Shown here in pieces: positions 8,636-24,586 of a stretch of DNA of 34,952 nucleotides; within the stretch, counting starts at the first letter, position 1, and every line of letters begins with the position of its first letter. Below the pieces are notes generated by a model that was not told where the DNA came from, did not search any database, and saw only the letters and a list, made by a program, of their open reading frames with translations. Source of the DNA: Syntrophaceae bacterium (GTDB lineage Bacteria; Desulfobacterota; Syntrophia; Syntrophales; UBA2185); assembly GCA_003153775.1 (NCBI GenBank), contig PMBI01000064.1:1-34952 (forward strand), in the 5' to 3' direction. Made by a program: the position numbers and the translations under genes.

Positions 8636-10222
8636 CTATTCGGCGGAACGCACCGGGAGCGCACGGCTATACTTATGCACCCCCTGAGGATCGACCTCAT
8701 CGCCATAGTACTGAAGGTATCGGGAATCGGAAGACCAAACCCACCAACAGGTAAGATGAATCAATGCCGTTAAATGGACATTATAACCACAATCAGAACG
8801 ATAAGTCTTACTCTTGTCAGACAATGCCCCCAGTTCAGCGATCGTCGGCATCCGCCAGTCCGTATGCTCGCCCCCGCGATAATTATCGCAATAGGACTTG
8901 GCGCCCGCCCAATCTTTTATACTGCTCCCGTTGTCCTGTGCCGCCCACATCAGATTTGTCTTTGTATCCAGGACCGTACCGTCGTCATATGCAATGAACC
9001 GACCGTTGTTCCTGATTTCCTTCGGCAGAGTCTTACCCATTGCCCTGAGTCGTTCCAACTTTTCTATCCGTGTGCTTGCATATTTCCGAATCTCATCACC
9101 TTTGGCAGTGCGCTCATCCGGCAGGGTTGCCATGAATTGTTGCCACACCTGAATCTTCTCGGACAAATTCGAGCTTTCGTTTTCAATCTTCTTTGCGTCC
9201 TCAAAATCCTTAACCCACTGACTTTCCTTCTCCCGTCTTTCTTCCATCTTCCTTTTAAGATCTTCAAAGGATGAACGCTCCGGAGGCTGAACCGGGGCAG
9301 ATGGTCTTTCCACATCTTCCTTCTGCGTCTGCTTTCCCGGCACTTCTTTCGTCGCCGAATCAGGCACAAAATAGAACTTCCCCTCTAACGATGATAACTC
9401 CCAGGGCACCTGGCCCGTTTCCTTCTTTAACTTCGTTCGCACTTTAATAAGAACGTCACTTATGGTTAGTCCAGGCTCCTGCATGAACTTGATCAACGCC
9501 GCCGTATAAGGGCTGTTGCGTCCTTCACCGTCACGGGCCACGTTTCCGGGACTGGTGGAATAGGAAATGAAAGTGCCCGACGGGGCGCTGCTGACGATGG
9601 CCAGGCCCCTTGAGGCGCTTCGGAAGCTGCGGGCAAAAGGATTGTCCCGACAGGCATCGAGCATTACAATATTCAGGCCATTGTTGGCGGCGGCCATTTC
9701 ATCGAGGATCTTATTGGCGTCAACAGCCTGATATTTGATGTCCGCTTCCTTGTTTATTTTTGCACCAATCGGCAGCAGGTAATTCGTCCCATTTATCTGA
9801 ACGCCATGTCCGGCATAGTAAAACAAACCCACGCCGCCTCTCTTCAGCCGGTTGCCAAACGCCTCAACTGCGTCGTCCATTTCCTGCAACCTGGCGTTTC
9901 TCTTGAGCGTAACGGTAAAGCCGAGTTTCTTCAGCAAGGCGGCCATGTCTGCCGCATCGTTGACAGGATTCCTCAAAGGACCGGAGCTGTAGGCGCTGTT
10001 GCCGATGACAAGGGCTGTCCGCCGCTCCGGGGCGGCAATCGATCCGGGTAAGACTTCTGCCGACTCACTCTTGCCGGCATTGGGCTTGGGGATTTCTGCC
10101 GGCGAGGGCGACTCCTTCTCGATATCAGGCGGCGGTTGTATACGTTTGGCAATCAATGAAGACGGAAAGATTAAAATAAGTATAAACAGGATAAGGAAGA
10201 TTCTTATAGGCATGGCTTGCAT
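8636..10222 (-). CDS. exported caspase-like (C14) protease with DUF1566/Lcl tail
   Basis: The protein has 528 residues. A signal peptide or N-terminal anchor (about 1-25) is followed by a Pro-rich linker. A caspase-fold domain (about 66-295) starts RRTALVIGNSAY and shows the catalytic pair His139 in YYAGHGVQ and Cys191 in LDACRDNPF. Residues about 310-390 are charged and helical, probably coiled coil. The C-terminal 130 residues resemble DUF1566 (FimH-like/Lcl C-terminal lectin-type fold): DGTVLDTKTNLMWAAQDNG, DWRMPTIAEL, WWVWSSDS and a final RALPVRSAE. SD AGGGGG precedes the ATG. Caspase-like proteases cut after Arg, Lys or Asp depending on the subgroup; the substrate is unknown. A periplasmic or surface role is inferred. 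It converges with the prenyltransferase. Confidence 0.85.
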   Translation of the reverse strand: MQAMPIRIFLILFILILIFPSSLIAKRIQPPPDIEKESPSPAEIPKPNAGKSESAEVLPGSIAAPERRTALVIGNSAYSSGPLRNPVNDAADMAALLKKLGFTVTLKRNARLQEMDDAVEAFGNRLKRGGVGLFYYAGHGVQINGTNYLLPIGAKINKEADIKYQAVDANKILDEMAAANNGLNIVMLDACRDNPFARSFRSASRGLAIVSSAPSGTFISYSTSPGNVARDGEGRNSPYTAALIKFMQEPGLTISDVLIKVRTKLKKETGQVPWELSSLEGKFYFVPDSATKEVPGKQTQKEDVERPSAPVQPPERSSFEDLKRKMEERREKESQWVKDFEDAKKIENESSNLSEKIQVWQQFMATLPDERTAKGDEIRKYASTRIEKLERLRAMGKTLPKEIRNNGRFIAYDDGTVLDTKTNLMWAAQDNGSSIKDWAGAKSYCDNYRGGEHTDWRMPTIAELGALSDKSKTYRSDCGYNVHLTALIHLTCWWVWSSDSRYLQYYGDEVDPQGVHKYSRALPVRSAE

Positions 10223-10484
10223 GGAAATACCCCCTATTTAATTAACAAGGTGATGTTTCTTATACTTCAGCCATCACGAAATGGCAACCGGATGTTGCGG
10301 ATTTCCGATTGAACAGTTGCATGGACGGAGAAAGTCAGGCACGCGACATTTCAGGAAGGATCTGATTGGCCTTCATTGTTCAGGTCTTTCCTTATCAATG
10401 AAAACTGCATGCAATGCAGGGTCCAGACTGTCATTAGGGGGCCATGACAATACGATCAAGATCGGTATTACTGCGAGATTGTGT

Positions 10485-10528
10485 CTAAAAAATCAAAAGG
10501 GACTCATTATTTACCTGAGTCCCTTTTG
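10485..10528 (-). terminator. Rho-independent terminator of the Lys-rich protein gene
   Basis: A perfect 13-bp stem is formed by CAAAAGGGACTCA (10494-10506) and TGAGTCCCTTTTG (10516-10528) around a 9-base loop. On the minus strand the stem is followed by ATTTTTTAG, a U-tract. It lies 28 bases past the stop of the minus-strand gene ending at 10556. The rest of the 333-base stretch between the caspase gene and that gene shows nothing else convincing and should contain the caspase promoter. Confidence 0.9.
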
Positions 10529-10555
10529 AATGAATTCTTACAATGGTGAGGCAAG

Positions 10556-10837
10556 CTATTGTTTCGGGACGCCCGATTCAGGTGCAGGCTTGCTCTTCAC
10601 GGCCTCTTCTCTTGCCTTCTTCCTTTTTTCCTTCTTTGCCTTCTTTGCCTTCTGCTTCTCTTCCTTAGTCAGCTTCTTCTTCTCTGGCACCTTCTTCTCT
10701 GGCGTCGGTGCTGTCATCGCATCCTTACTTGGATCAACTGTGGGCTTAGCCGGTGCGGGCTGAGCCTGAGCAAAGCATAAGCCGTTTAAAGAAAGTGCAA
10801 ACAGAATAGCGATAAGTATTGTCGTTAGTTTCTTCAT
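10556..10837 (-). CDS. small exported Lys/Pro-rich protein, unknown function
   Basis: The protein has 93 residues from the ATG at 10837, 8 bases after SD GGAGG; a GTG at 10846 falls inside the SD and is rejected. Residues 1-24 form a clear signal peptide ending LCFAQ. The mature chain is low-complexity: Pro/Ala-rich, then an extremely basic run of Lys, Glu and Arg (about 48-82), then a short Pro-containing tail. No family was recognised. Such basic exported proteins may bind anionic surface polymers, but that is speculation. It is monocistronic: a strong terminator follows and a candidate sigma-54 promoter with two upstream palindromes precedes it. Confidence 0.75.
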   Translation of the reverse strand: MKKLTTILIAILFALSLNGLCFAQAQPAPAKPTVDPSKDAMTAPTPEKKVPEKKKLTKEEKQKAKKAKKEKRKKAREEAVKSKPAPESGVPKQ

Positions 10838-10875
10838 TCGTCTCACCTCCTTTATTTTGGTTTTCTATTAAGATA

Positions 10876-10890
10876 GCAATAACCATTCCA
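10876..10890 (-). promoter_or_regulatory. candidate sigma-54 (-24/-12) promoter
   Basis: The minus strand reads TGGAATGGTTATTGC followed by T. This keeps the invariant GG at -24 and GC at -12 at exact spacing (consensus TGGCACG-N4-TTGC). The implied start of transcription is near 10864, leaving a leader of about 27 bases that holds the SD of the gene starting at 10837. Two palindromes lie about 110 and 130 bases upstream, where enhancer-binding proteins usually sit. Confidence 0.5.
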
Positions 10891-10966
10891 CAATGAAGAT
10901 AAATAACAATAAGTAACAATGATAATGAGTTACCAACATATAATGATGGTATATGCCTCTTCGTTG

Positions 10967-11000
10967 GGGAAGTACTTCCCTTGCCTTGGGGAATAATTCC
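10967..11000. promoter_or_regulatory. tandem palindromes, likely activator-binding sites
   Basis: GGGAAGTACTTCCC (10967-10980) is a perfect 14-bp palindrome and GGAATAATTCC (10990-11000) a perfect 11-bp one. Both are preceded by TTGGGGAA on the plus strand. Their centres are about 21.5 bp apart, close to two helical turns, as expected for paired dimer sites on one DNA face. Nothing else was recognised in the 392-base gap between 10838 and 11229. Confidence 0.5.
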
Positions 11001-11229
11001 TCATTATCCTAAAAGACCCCAAAAGATTTAATTACATGTTGTCTTGAGGTTTTTCTCTTTTGATTATTCCCAGTTCTAATGTACGATAAGAGAGCAAAAT
11101 AGATAAATCAAGACTTCAGTCCTCCTGCCTTTCCATGATTCATACTTATAACGTACAATATCACATTAACAATTCTTATACATGAACTCATGGTAGGAGG
11201 AAGTTAGAAACAGACGTCATCCGTTTCGT

Positions 11230-12024
11230 TCACCTGTGCGTCCCGGTCCGTTGAAATCCCGCGGCCTGGAACGCCGCTCGCCCCGCGGGGGAATCTATAA
11301 AAGTCACGAATGCTCGAGCGACATCGGGTGTCTTACTTGACTTGAGCGCCACGGCAGCATAAGCAATCGCGTTCTGAATACCCGCAGGCAGTGGGCCGAC
11401 CAGTTCCGCGCCGGGAACGGCGACGATCTCGCTCGACTGGACGATTACGATCTCCGATTCTCCATTGACTACGCGGCGGACTGCGTCCTCACCTACTGCC
11501 GTCAACTCGCTTTTGCCCCGCATCTGCTCGGCGATGCCGAGACGCGGAAGCACTACCGTCGCAAAATATGTGCCCGACGTCCCACCGCGGGCAGGATCTG
11601 CATAGGTGATCGATTTTGCCGCGAGGAGCGTTTCGCGAAAGTCTTCCAATGTGCCGATCTTGGGTCGCGTCGTTCCTGCCTTGATGCCTACTCCCACCCC
11701 GACGCTGCCCACTTCCAGCCGTGAGTCCGGTATTGCCAGCCCAGCTTTCTCGAGCTCGGAAATTCCTTTGGATGGAAGCACGGTGACATCGGCAGGTGCG
11801 CCCGCGGCAATCTGCTTCTGGATTCCGCCGCCCGTGCCGAAAGTAAACTTGATGGTGTGGCCGGTCTGGCGCGCGAAAGCAGCAGCGGCGCCCTCGACAG
11901 CAGACCTGACTCCGCCCGGTGCGTACACGCTAAGTTCGGCAGCCGTTGCGCAAATTGGCAATGTACCAAGGATGCCCGCAAACACCGCCACGCCCCAGAA
12001 TGAGATTACTTGTTTTATTGTCAT
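11230..12024 (-). CDS. ModA-like (molybdate-type) ABC substrate-binding protein, orphan
   Basis: The protein has 264 residues with SD AGGAGG before the ATG. A signal peptide ends near residue 28 (ATAAELSVYAP). The mature chain is a type-II periplasmic binding protein of the ModA/Wtp-like group, with an early GGV/FGTGGG anion-binding segment, PADVTVLPSKGISELEKAG, and a C-terminal SPAGRAAFQAAGF. The family binds molybdate, tungstate or related ligands, but the ligand here is unproven. No permease or ATPase gene is adjacent. The coding sequence looks clearly more GC-rich than its AT-rich flanks, with codons unlike its neighbours, which suggests acquisition from a high-GC proteobacterium. Confidence 0.85.
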   Translation of the reverse strand: MTIKQVISFWGVAVFAGILGTLPICATAAELSVYAPGGVRSAVEGAAAAFARQTGHTIKFTFGTGGGIQKQIAAGAPADVTVLPSKGISELEKAGLAIPDSRLEVGSVGVGVGIKAGTTRPKIGTLEDFRETLLAAKSITYADPARGGTSGTYFATVVLPRLGIAEQMRGKSELTAVGEDAVRRVVNGESEIVIVQSSEIVAVPGAELVGPLPAGIQNAIAYAAVALKSSKTPDVARAFVTFIDSPAGRAAFQAAGFQRTGTHR

Positions 12025-12322
12025 CGCTCTTCCTCCTGTCAGAGGCGGCTGTCGGGTGTAGCTGATCCCGATTTTCGCTTTAGAATTGAACTGCGGATCA
12101 GACGCTGCCTGTTTATCATGGTAGTATTAGCTTACTATTATACTTATATTAAACCACCATTGAGATATGTAATTTTATGCATTAATAGATATATGAAGAA
12201 TATCATTTTGTCATAACCTCAAGCAAACCATTTATTGGACAGTAGGGTAAGAAAATCAGCAGATCAAGAAAAGAGGGTGGGTTTTAAACAATTCAATTCT
12301 AAACAGGCGAAGGAGGAAAACT
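12025..12322. other. AT-rich divergent intergenic region
   Basis: This 298-base stretch separates the ModA-like gene (minus) from the OB-fold protein gene (plus). It must hold both promoters. It is rich in ATTA/TATA-type runs, so several weak -10-like boxes exist and none can be chosen. No convincing palindrome or small gene was seen. Confidence 0.5.
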
Positions 12323-12802
12323 ATGCGAAAGTTGGCAATAGGGATTGTCGTGGTTGTTGCGATTAGTATGTTGTTAGTGCCGGTGGCGTTTGCTCAGAGC
12401 TCACAGGCGGCAGGGTCTACCGTAGCAGGAGGTGCGTGGAGCCTGGGGCTTCCCTCATCAGATACCCTAGGACCCTTTACAGGAAACGAGGCTATTGTGG
12501 TTGAATCCGGCAAGGTAGTGAAAATGGAGAAAATGGCCGGAGTAAAAGAAGGCCTGCAGATGAAATTCAAGAATGAGCAGGGTAATGTTTATACTGTTTA
12601 CATGGGGCCCAAGTGGTTCATTGAAAATCAGAAGATTAAATTTAAGGCTGGTGACAGCGTGATGGTGAGGGGGAAGAAATTTGGTTCCGCCATCGTAGCA
12701 ACAGAAATCAGCAAGGGCGATTGGACCATGAAACTTCGTAATGAAGAAGACGGCCAGCCAAGCTGGGAATGCTGTTTCCCAGGAAAAGTGAAAATGCAGT
12801 AA
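12323..12802 (+). CDS. exported OB-fold-like protein (MamS/MamX C-terminal-domain-like)
   Basis: The protein has 159 residues with SD AAGGAGG 7 bases before the ATG. A signal peptide is clear (1-24, ending AFAQ). The mature part contains the pattern GKVVKMEKM, then YTVYMGPKWFIENQ, then FKAGDSVMVRGKK and a late KLRNEEDGQPSWE. This succession recalls the OB-fold-like C-terminal domain of magnetosome proteins MamS/MamX and their many non-magnetosome relatives; the match is from memory of motifs. Two adjacent Cys (ECC) near the end could bind metal or form disulfides. No magnetosome genes are near, so a magnetosome role is not claimed. An imperfect hairpin lies about 190 bases downstream. Confidence 0.6.
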   Translation: MRKLAIGIVVVVAISMLLVPVAFAQSSQAAGSTVAGGAWSLGLPSSDTLGPFTGNEAIVVESGKVVKMEKMAGVKEGLQMKFKNEQGNVYTVYMGPKWFIENQKIKFKAGDSVMVRGKKFGSAIVATEISKGDWTMKLRNEEDGQPSWECCFPGKVKMQ

Positions 12803-13727: not shown

Positions 13728-13742
13728 TGGTATGGTAGTTGC
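13728..13742 (+). promoter_or_regulatory. candidate sigma-54 promoter
   Basis: TGGTATGGTAGTTGC followed by T fits TGGYAYG-N4-TTGCW with exact -24/-12 spacing. The implied start of transcription is near 13754, about 60 bases before the ATG at 13815. No upstream activator palindrome was found. Confidence 0.5.
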
Positions 13743-13814
13743 TATCTGGTTTCTTTACCTTGTTCGTGTAATGCTTCTTGGGATGATATAATTTCGCTGA
13801 CAGGACAACATCAT

Positions 13815-14132
13815 ATGAGGACTATGAAGATACGAGAGATAATCAATACCCAAAAACGTAAAGCCGTCATAGCAATGGTTTCAGGAATGGCCGTATTCTT
13901 GGTCAGTCTAATCATAAGCCCGGATTATACGGTTATGTCCTACGTGGCATTGGCTGGATTTGCTGTTGCCATGGGAGCCATCACGTTCCTGGAGCTCGGC
14001 CTCAGTTGCCCGCAGTGCCGGGGTCGCATTGGTTGTGCGGTAAACTATCCGGGCAGGCCTCTTTCCGTTTCATCAAAAATTCGCTTTTGCCCATTTTGCG
14101 GAGTCTCATTGGACTCACGCCTCAAACTATAA
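13815..14132 (+). CDS. membrane protein with C-terminal zinc ribbon, unknown
   Basis: The protein has 105 residues. After a basic N-terminus it has two hydrophobic segments (about 18-34 and 40-61), then a Cys-rich tail with two CPxC knuckles, CPQC (65-68) and CPFC (92-95), which together should bind one Zn2+ (zinc ribbon). The start at 13815 follows a weak ACAGGA; an ATG three codons later is an alternative. The family is unknown. A candidate sigma-54 promoter lies 73 bases upstream of the start and a good terminator follows, so it is probably a single-gene unit. Confidence 0.65.
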   Translation: MRTMKIREIINTQKRKAVIAMVSGMAVFLVSLIISPDYTVMSYVALAGFAVAMGAITFLELGLSCPQCRGRIGCAVNYPGRPLSVSSKIRFCPFCGVSLDSRLKL

Positions 14133-18826: not shown

Positions 18827-20203
18827 TCAATTTTTCTTCGCCCCAATCAACTGCGGCGTTTGTTCGTTGTTGTACTGCTTCCGAGCAATGCGTTCAACTT
18901 GAGGCTTCAGGTAGCTGAACAAGTCTGTAAGTGCAATTGATCCGTCCTTTTTCACTACATCTTCATTCTTGATTCCCTTCAACATGAAATATGTGAAAAG
19001 CCCGTGGCCTTTTTCCTCATAGGTCGAGCTGATCTGGTCCCCGGACGCGGCGCTCAGTACAGCCACTTTTTTCGGGATTGATTCGCTGCTCATGGTCATA
19101 ACCAGCGGCCTCGCGCCCTTGGCAATCACGCTCCTTCCGCCCGCTCCGGAGAAACATGAATCAAGCGCCACGATTATTTCCTTCGCAGGGAGTTTTCCGA
19201 GTGCATCATAGAGCCTTCGGAGCGGATAGCCGGTCTCCCCGATAAACGCGGGGTCTCCGTCATACGGAACGAGATAGGCGTCACCCGTCTTGGGATTCGG
19301 CGCACCATGCCCGGAATAATAAACAAACACCGTGCCGCCTTTTTCAACATTGTTCGGCAGCCATTTTTCAAAATATTTTACGAAGTCTCCCAAAGCGGCA
19401 AGGTCATTCGTGAGCGTTACAACATTCTCTTCCGGATAGCCCATCGCCTTTGTGAGATATTCCGTTACCAACTTTGCATCGGCGGCCGCGAAATCGGCCC
19501 TGGGCAGCTTTTGGCGGTAGTTCTCGATGCCAATGACTATCGCATATGCCTTGCTGTTGGGCCGTGCCTGTGCATTAGGGGGAAGAGAGATGTCCGTTTG
19601 ATCAGGAGCGGGAACAGTTTTTTGCGGCTGCGCCGTGACAATCGGCTTTCCATCAAAGTACGCCATTAATACATCCGCAGGAGCATATCCGATCCTTCTC
19701 CGTCCGTCAGGAAAAATGGTGGTCGGAACGCCGGTGATATTCAAAGACTGTGCGAGCGCGATGGTCTTATCGACAGCGTCGCTGTTGCAGTCCCGTGCGG
19801 GGATCGGCTTGTTTTCAAAATTGTCTTCAAGCATCTGCAAGGAAGAGCTGCAAAGGATGCTTTTTGATTTCCAGTAAGCGTCCTTGTGCATTGCCAAAGG
19901 AAAAAGTCTTATATAGAAGGCAACGTCGTTGCGCTCTGCCACAATTTTTTTAAGCTCTGCGTGAAGTTTCAGGCAATAAGGACAATCAGGGTCGGTAAAA
20001 ACCACGGCCTTTTTCGCTGCCGCAGGGTTGCCCATGACAAGAGCGTGTTCCTTCGTAAGGTCGCTGAAAGATGCATCTGGCTGCTTGACGGTAAACCCGT
20101 AAGCGTATTGTCCGTACGAGACTACCAGAAAAACAATCAGACAAACTGACGCAAACTTGACTGACATAGATATGCGACCTATGTTTCTTCCTCTTGCTTT
20201 CAT
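18827..20203 (-). CDS. DsbC-like thiol-disulfide domain fused to caspase-like protease
   Basis: The protein has 458 residues with SD AAGGAGAGG before the ATG. A basic N-terminus and hydrophobic stretch (about 14-36) should direct export. Residues about 40-190 form a DsbC/DsbG-type thioredoxin fold: FTDPDCPYCLKLH with redox pair Cys74/Cys77, cis-Pro160 in TGVPTTIFPDG, and a second Cys pair 118/139 spaced as in DsbC. After a Pro-rich linker (about 192-215), a caspase fold (217-455) begins KAYAIVIGIENY, with catalytic His299 in YYSGHGAP and Cys350 in LDSCFSGAGG. The fusion is in one uninterrupted frame. Either module is common; the combination is not one I recognise. A periplasmic redox-controlled protease is an inference. 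It leads a six-gene run. Confidence 0.9.
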   Translation of the reverse strand: MKARGRNIGRISMSVKFASVCLIVFLVVSYGQYAYGFTVKQPDASFSDLTKEHALVMGNPAAAKKAVVFTDPDCPYCLKLHAELKKIVAERNDVAFYIRLFPLAMHKDAYWKSKSILCSSSLQMLEDNFENKPIPARDCNSDAVDKTIALAQSLNITGVPTTIFPDGRRRIGYAPADVLMAYFDGKPIVTAQPQKTVPAPDQTDISLPPNAQARPNSKAYAIVIGIENYRQKLPRADFAAADAKLVTEYLTKAMGYPEENVVTLTNDLAALGDFVKYFEKWLPNNVEKGGTVFVYYSGHGAPNPKTGDAYLVPYDGDPAFIGETGYPLRRLYDALGKLPAKEIIVALDSCFSGAGGRSVIAKGARPLVMTMSSESIPKKVAVLSAASGDQISSTYEEKGHGLFTYFMLKGIKNEDVVKKDGSIALTDLFSYLKPQVERIARKQYNNEQTPQLIGAKKN

Positions 20204-24283: not shown

Positions 24284-24586
24284 TCAGAATTCTGCACGAG
24301 ACCGGCTGGTTCTATCCGGCATTGACTTCCACCTGGATTCCCCTCTTGTGCGCTGTGCCGATAACTGAGGCGTTCTCTTCGCATGTAAAGGAATAAGCTT
24401 TGATGAGGCGCTCGGCTTTTGCCTTAACAAATTATTTGCCGACGGTGTCGGTGCAAGATTCTTGGGGATAGAAATAGATTTGCCTCTTGCATTGAGGGGT
24501 GTCGTGTCGGCGGCATTGGAAATGGGACAGAGTGTGAATGCAAAGAAGGCAGTAAAGATTAACACCTGTGCAGAAAGTCTTCTCAT
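24284..24586 (-). CDS. possible exported small protein or decayed gene
   Basis: The frame of 100 residues starts at an ATG with AAAGG about 9 bases upstream. Residues 1-25 form a believable signal peptide (ending SNAAD). The rest is Ser/Arg/Lys-rich with no fold signal and runs to the edge of the convergent thioesterase gene, as if the original C-terminus was lost to a frameshift or deletion. No family recognised. Confidence 0.35.
   Translation of the reverse strand: MRRLSAQVLIFTAFFAFTLCPISNAADTTPLNARGKSISIPKNLAPTPSANNLLRQKPSASSKLIPLHAKRTPQLSAQRTRGESRWKSMPDRTSRSRAEF

Follow-up and report, generated by a model that had tools for sequence, protein, structure and literature searches.

The small gene at positions 10837 to 10556 of the window (the whole stretch of 34,952 nucleotides of Syntrophaceae bacterium DNA that was analyzed) is probably a free-standing sigma-54 unit, in which an enhancer-binding protein (EBP) of a two-component system acts on a pair of upstream palindromes and a signal-induced, Sec-exported polycation is made whose role in the cell envelope would be comparable to that of ZraP. 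The earlier note had described an EBP unit controlling a very basic exported protein, and this remained the best reading given the presence of rpoN, the conservation of the promoter element and the palindromes, and the activators linked to the gene in relatives.

The gene runs on the minus strand from an ATG at 10837 to a stop codon at 10556 and encodes a lysine-rich protein of 93 amino acids with a signal peptide. Translation of this minus-strand gene gives a product that begins with MKKLTTILIAILFALSLNGLCFAQA and continues as a tail of Lys, Glu, Ala and Pro. If the leader is taken to end at residue 24, the remaining chain contains 20 Lys, 2 Arg, 8 Glu and 2 Asp and is computed to carry a net charge of +12, with a pI of about 10.1 and neither aromatic residues nor Cys. 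The upstream neighbor (11230-12024, same strand), which appeared by inspection to encode a ModA-like binding protein, lies about 390 bp from the start codon of the small gene. Contig C26 of the window's genome holds two further tandem copies of the family, each with a like promoter unit. Two exported proteins elsewhere in the window (8636-10222 and 18827-20203, minus strand) appeared caspase-like by inspection, one of them behind a thioredoxin-like domain.

The predicted sigma-54 element, TGGAATGGTTATTGC (TGG-N8-TTGC, followed by TA), lies at 10890-10876 on the minus strand, 38 nt before the ATG, and the ribosome-binding site AGGAGGT is at 10851-10845 (minus strand; transcription start predicted near 10864), in agreement with the earlier description of an element at exact -24/-12 spacing just upstream of the Shine-Dalgarno sequence. 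The terminator claimed for the gene was likewise recovered as a strong intrinsic one, with a 14-bp stem, a 9-nt loop and a T6 tail (10529-10487, minus strand; -22.2 kcal/mol, z -5.95). It was absent from the consensus scan, whose loop limit is 8 nt, and similar hairpins were seen by eye 3' of several homologs. No sigma-70 promoter was listed by the consensus scan on the minus strand within 10400-12330.

A motif scan for rpoN sites, proposed earlier as a check, recovered the element, but the string alone did not exceed chance: the window holds 6 sigma-54 strings with a score of at least 18 vs. 4.4 in simulated sequence, and a second chance estimate gave 3 vs. 1.49. The string was rejected as stand-alone evidence because of this chance-level frequency. 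Absence of rpoN had been named as grounds against the unit; since the gene is present in the window's genome (E 4.9e-65), that objection falls. Two further strings were noted in the window, where such strings occur at chance level: TGGTATGGTAGTTGCTA at 13728-13744 (plus strand), which is very like the family -24/-12 element and precedes an ORF at 13815-14132, and TGGTATATGGTTTGCAA at 24670-24654 (minus strand), which precedes a small ORF (24284-24586, minus strand) for an exported protein that looks basic.

Two palindromes, each a presumed EBP site without strand, lie upstream of the element: the promoter-proximal GGGAAGTACTTCCC (10967-10980) and the promoter-distal GGAATAATTCC (10990-11000). 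Counted from the TGG they lie about 84 and 105 bp upstream, and counted from the predicted start about 110 and 131 bp, which fits the distances of about 110 and 130 bases given before; their centers are about 21.5 bp apart (21-22 bp), consistent with the claimed two helical turns. Paired palindromes that are conserved, in helical phase and 80-150 bp upstream are thus present, as in an EBP-controlled unit. The 14-bp palindrome occurs once vs. 0.10 expected, and the pair gave one match vs. none in 100 shuffles, for a pattern written after the site was seen. The window's copy differs slightly from those of relatives, with one site 13 rather than 12 bp across and a spacing of 21 rather than 22. 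Tandem Repeats Finder detected a 21-bp array in L111 and none in L110 or at the window's palindromes.

A protein search of 60 genomes gave 27 places in 20 genomes, the window's own included; one of these (L021 in G009) was a false match to a different, longer protein and was dropped, which left 26 places in 19 genomes. The search was insensitive, and two copies in G031 that it missed were seen later. When the 26 upstream regions were aligned on the start codon, all 26 had a sigma-54 element with a score of at least 16 at 37-52 nt upstream of that codon (null 1.7%), and a GGGAA/TTCCC palindrome pair with 20-23 bp spacing was found in 18 (null 0.04%, with sites defined once they had been seen). 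The eight members without the pair by this strict count were three of f6, three of f13, the single f8 member and a short copy in G002; f6 and f13 are the families with a linked two-HTH regulator, yet all their members lack the strict pair.

The best-conserved upstream parts were the element, both palindromes and the ribosome-binding site. Across 15 promoters of the window's family, column identity was 94% at the proximal and 93% at the distal palindrome, 94% in the TTGC part and 97% at the ribosome-binding site (AAAGGAGGTG), vs. 72% in the AT-rich stretch from the element to the sites (10891-10966, minus strand; a possible bending region) and 47% in the 60 bp further upstream. The element is judged real because it is kept across relatives, even though the string itself is at chance level. 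From distal site to element, f1 promoters measured 110-112 bp and f10 promoters 119-122 bp, G047 being the exception at 100 bp, and these differences correspond roughly to whole helical turns, one or two.

When one genome per species (84,980 species, contigs of at least 3 kb; the window's own records are possibly outside this sample) was searched for exact copies of GGGAATWWTTCCYCA-N6-GGGGAATWNYTCCYCA, 16 matches in 15 records were obtained, each before the window's gene family and all 110-122 bp before the family sigma-54 element; for L090 and L098 the starts were taken from contigs of matching length, L011 and L017. All 15 records are metagenome-assembled and are labelled Syntrophaceae, Syntrophus, Syntrophobacterales, Deltaproteobacteria and, once, Pseudomonadota; judged by these names, the order would be Syntrophales and the phylum Desulfobacterota. 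The search overlaps the 60-genome protein search, in which 9 of the 15 records appear to be contigs already matched. A looser pattern with one mismatch matched 21 of the 155 genomes of the order, comprising 9 of 9 in f1, 10 of 11 in f10, G066 and G039, and the reversed pattern matched none of the 155. The double-site matches in G066 and G039 were judged to be due to chance, the former (L183) being without an element above 15.

The window's own double site was caught only at two mismatches, and up to that limit just three promoters in its genome matched, all of the family. The earlier suggestion that a genome search for the palindrome pair would find the regulator therefore failed, since matches confined to family promoters gave no lead to a regulator gene. 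Single palindromes near EBP genes of the window's genome were two-mismatch matches only; in that scan, the loci of genus g3 hold the known sites. Genus g3 (G005 and G008) has extra promoter copies at five places, with the element at 110-111 bp. At four of the five (L114, L115, L184/L200 and L198/L201) the next recognizable gene encodes another exported protein.

Families f13 and f6 have a histidine kinase gene and the gene for a sigma-54 response regulator (519-527 amino acids) immediately upstream of the small gene. Each of three f13 regulators scanned against Pfam contained a receiver domain, a sigma-54 activation domain and two HTH_8 stretches, and the G013 regulator (f6) had a two-HTH tail by alignment. 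The two-HTH form was found in 7 of the 60 genomes (G013, G020, G031, G036, G045, G048 and G055) and a single-HTH form in G037; the kinase was present in exactly these eight. Across 395 genomes of the phylum, with 10 candidates scored per genome, the two-HTH profile had one full-length match, which was G013 itself, and eleven other genomes matched one half of the profile with E <=1e-18. A 49-residue HTH profile gave 32 matches in 30 of the 395 genomes at E <=2.8e-20; beyond these, E values jumped to 3.5e-18 and then tailed off slowly (167 genomes at 1e-12).

Seven regulators (in G272, G379, G252, G288, G260, G192 and G227) contained the helix SYKT(F/L)WYR, a class chosen after the results were seen, and together with the eight strong matches from the 60 genomes they formed a set of 15 linked-type regulators. 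For 13 of these 15, a count that includes the post hoc helix class, a small exported gene with at least 18% Lys was directly after the kinase and regulator genes, the exceptions without an adjoining small Lys-rich gene being G055 and G379; the figure was 9 of 11 without the four seeds (G013, G020, G036 and G048), which had been found through adjacency. The 13 positive cases span six families, with four (G192, G227, G260 and G288) from one genus. Twelve of them had a sigma-54 element scoring 16-19 at 39-72 nt before the start, and in G227 the element (18) was further upstream. Beside the 21 other regulators that were read among the matches of the 49-residue profile (20 with an LQYR helix; L246 left out), a small exported neighbor with at least 15% Lys was found in five cases and with at least 18% in four. 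As a control, a Lys-rich small gene was beside none of 20 EBPs of the window's genome and another leader ORF was beside three, with a filter that is imperfect in that it missed the gene after G252's regulator.

Operators at the linked genes were compared by eye. A similar TTCCC-AAA-GGGAA core was seen at several genes of the WYR type, for example TGGGAAAATTTTCCCA in G252 and TTTCCCAAATGGGGAAA in G288, and two LQYR-type cases (G323 and G170) had TATACCAAATGGTATA instead. The operator region of G036 is a 21-bp tandem array, counted by eye as 4-5 units, and no clear operator was seen in f6. Genes for VTT-domain (DedA/TVP38-like) membrane proteins by Pfam were found near the small gene in two families (L110 14592-15233 and L106 9776-10447).

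The linked arrangement in relatives points to a signal-driven cell-envelope response. The regulators resemble NtrC-type EBPs in their receiver, AAA+ and Fis-type HTH domains, and the palindromes, paired about 21 bp apart with a sigma-54 promoter downstream, are also of that type; unlike NtrC-type EBPs, the regulators of f13 (HTH_8, Pfam) and f6 (by alignment) have two tandem Fis-type HTH domains. ZraSR-ZraP of E. coli and Salmonella appears to be the closest working analogue, with a histidine kinase, a sigma-54 response regulator and a small exported target with a sigma-54 promoter, although the small protein itself is not ZraP. There, a small periplasmic chaperone with its own sigma-54 promoter is under the control of the two-component pair (PMC4987338). 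The linked loci differ from it in that kinase, regulator and target follow one another on one strand rather than being divergent, and the window differs in that no kinase and regulator genes stand beside the small gene, as they do in other families. The Lys-rich protein differs from ZraP in that its Pfam scan gave zero families above cut-off, and none of the ZraP/CpxP type was listed. The system is a variant of known two-component sigma-54 control, to which it adds a conserved module, two-HTH activators and the absence of the regulator from the window's lineage.

The Asr acid shock protein of enterobacteria is also a small exported protein rich in Lys and Ala, and asr is not known to be a sigma-54 gene. 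Searches of the literature for sigma-54 or RpoN in Syntrophus or Syntrophaceae, and for lysine-rich proteins with sigma-54 in Deltaproteobacteria, gave no paper, each a weak negative as subscription journals were mostly outside coverage. Single passages of PMC4641369 and PMC12316311 contained no operator or family matching the window's unit.

From its composition and by analogy, we infer that the small protein acts in the envelope as a disordered polycation that the cell makes on demand. A less favored assignment, improbable in our judgment but still to be taken seriously, keeps the unit as described and makes the product a secreted matrix, adhesion or extracellular nucleic-acid-binding protein in the aggregates of syntrophic consortia. 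Its polycationic nature, its lack of a Pfam family over cut-off and the labelling of the records as syntrophic lineages would suit such a function, as would the extra part carried by equivalent proteins in some families (DUF5666 above cut-off in G037; CusF-like, with weaker matches, in others). The profiles of the linked proteins do not advance this assignment, as they gave little guidance on role, all scores being below cut-off. The linked f13 regulator scored 473 bits for AtoC (cut-off 714), 447 for NtrC (558.6) and 442 for TIGR02915, the PEP-CTERM-box response regulator family (502.6), with ZraR next in order, and differs from the first three of these families in its second HTH; the one linked kinase scanned matched AtoS best and then ZraS, again below the cut-offs. 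An envelope protein remains the preferred reading of the product.

The window's genome has 20 strong EBP matches plus some partial ones. No EBP gene was found in the window, which had one weak receiver-domain match only, or in the stretches of up to 20 kb around the f1 and f10 family genes. The linked-type regulator was not found in the window's genome, where the best profile matches had E values of 2.3e-9 and 5.3e-12, vs. 2.8e-20 to 1.2e-31 for the 49-residue profile in genomes having the linked regulator, nor was the linked kinase (best kinase profile match 1.8e-13). With no linked-type pair found, the operator and the gene persist in f1 and f10 without it, and the activator in the window's family must be another EBP that uses the kept operator.

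The presence of 21 EBP C-terminal parts was compared across seven operator-bearing genomes, and six EBPs (L062, L065, L069, L074, L077 and L078) were present in all seven, so that the presence profile was rejected as a pointer to the activator. Among these six, GAFTGA was found in L062 and L065. L062 was set aside since E 1e-140 was passed in 43 of the 60 genomes, many without the operator, and failed in the operator-bearing G006. L061, with the helix NQRSLWHRIKK and a pseudopilin-like gene beside it, was suggestive but had no match in four f10 genomes or in G005. The kinase/EBP pair of L062 adjoins a gene (L206 6520-6774) for an 84-amino-acid, lipoprotein-like protein with a family-like leader, MRKLLAIILSILFVVAVTF, and a Gly-Ala-Pro repeat tail; the promoter of this gene looked sigma-70-like by eye.

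Re-use of a conserved regulator of the genome, either L065 (contig C85, AtoC/ZraR-like) or L078 (contig C63), as activator in the window's family is, in our judgment, improbable but likewise to be taken seriously. L065 is the genome's best HTH match, has the GAFTGA motif noted above and has an ortholog in each of the seven operator-bearing genomes tested, but its recognition helix differs (SERMLRYKLKKY vs. SYKTFWYRWEKF) and regulators that end in a like HTH are also present in G042 and G026, both without the operator. L078 likewise has orthologs in all seven, and in G015 (f8) the small gene is about 2 kb away from a kinase and a regulator 74% identical to L078 (L109 4623-9761), with the regulator in the opposite direction; against it, L078 has GAYTGA rather than GAFTGA and has different gene neighbors in the window's genome. 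Presence does not discriminate between candidates because four more EBPs are also found in all seven genomes.

It is very improbable that the palindromes are sites for a repressor or a sigma-70-type activator, with TGG-N8-TTGC incidental and a sigma-70 promoter in use, since, even though the window contains at least as many such strings as chance would give and ordinary dimeric regulators could also bind paired palindromes, all 26 members keep the string at a constant distance while the flanks diverge, the minus-strand scan listed no sigma-70 promoter and the adjacent gene in other families encodes a sigma-54 activator.

The sigma-54 unit would operate in the manner of NtrC-type activators, in which two dimers seed a hexamer, the intervening DNA loops and the sigma-54 promoter is opened with ATP. 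The gene would stay off as long as no envelope or extracellular signal is perceived. A phosphorylated two-component EBP would then bind the palindrome pair as two dimers and oligomerize, the AT-rich DNA would loop, and contact of the EBP with sigma-54 polymerase would open the promoter at the expense of ATP and give strong expression. Export by Sec would yield a polycationic, probably disordered mature protein, which would most likely coat or shield an anionic envelope partner such as outer-membrane lipid, peptidoglycan or misfolded proteins.

A broader and more tentative history, which we consider somewhat short of likely, is that an envelope-sensing module widespread in the phylum consists of the membrane kinase, the sigma-54 activator and the polycationic, disordered exported output, that the HTH was duplicated in part of the order, plausibly so that a single dimer can span two adjacent palindromes of a 21-bp array, that the pair was lost in f1 and a substitute activator took over, and that in one genus the promoter was copied before other exported genes.

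What began as a single promoter prediction is now a conserved and testable module of gene control in uncultured bacteria that are probably syntrophic; relatives supply candidates for the regulator, the operator is defined and the output is one small gene. Two-HTH activators provide a natural test of how EBPs recognize paired sites, and the window's family, in which the regulator is missing, offers a clean case for the study of regulator replacement on a kept operator.
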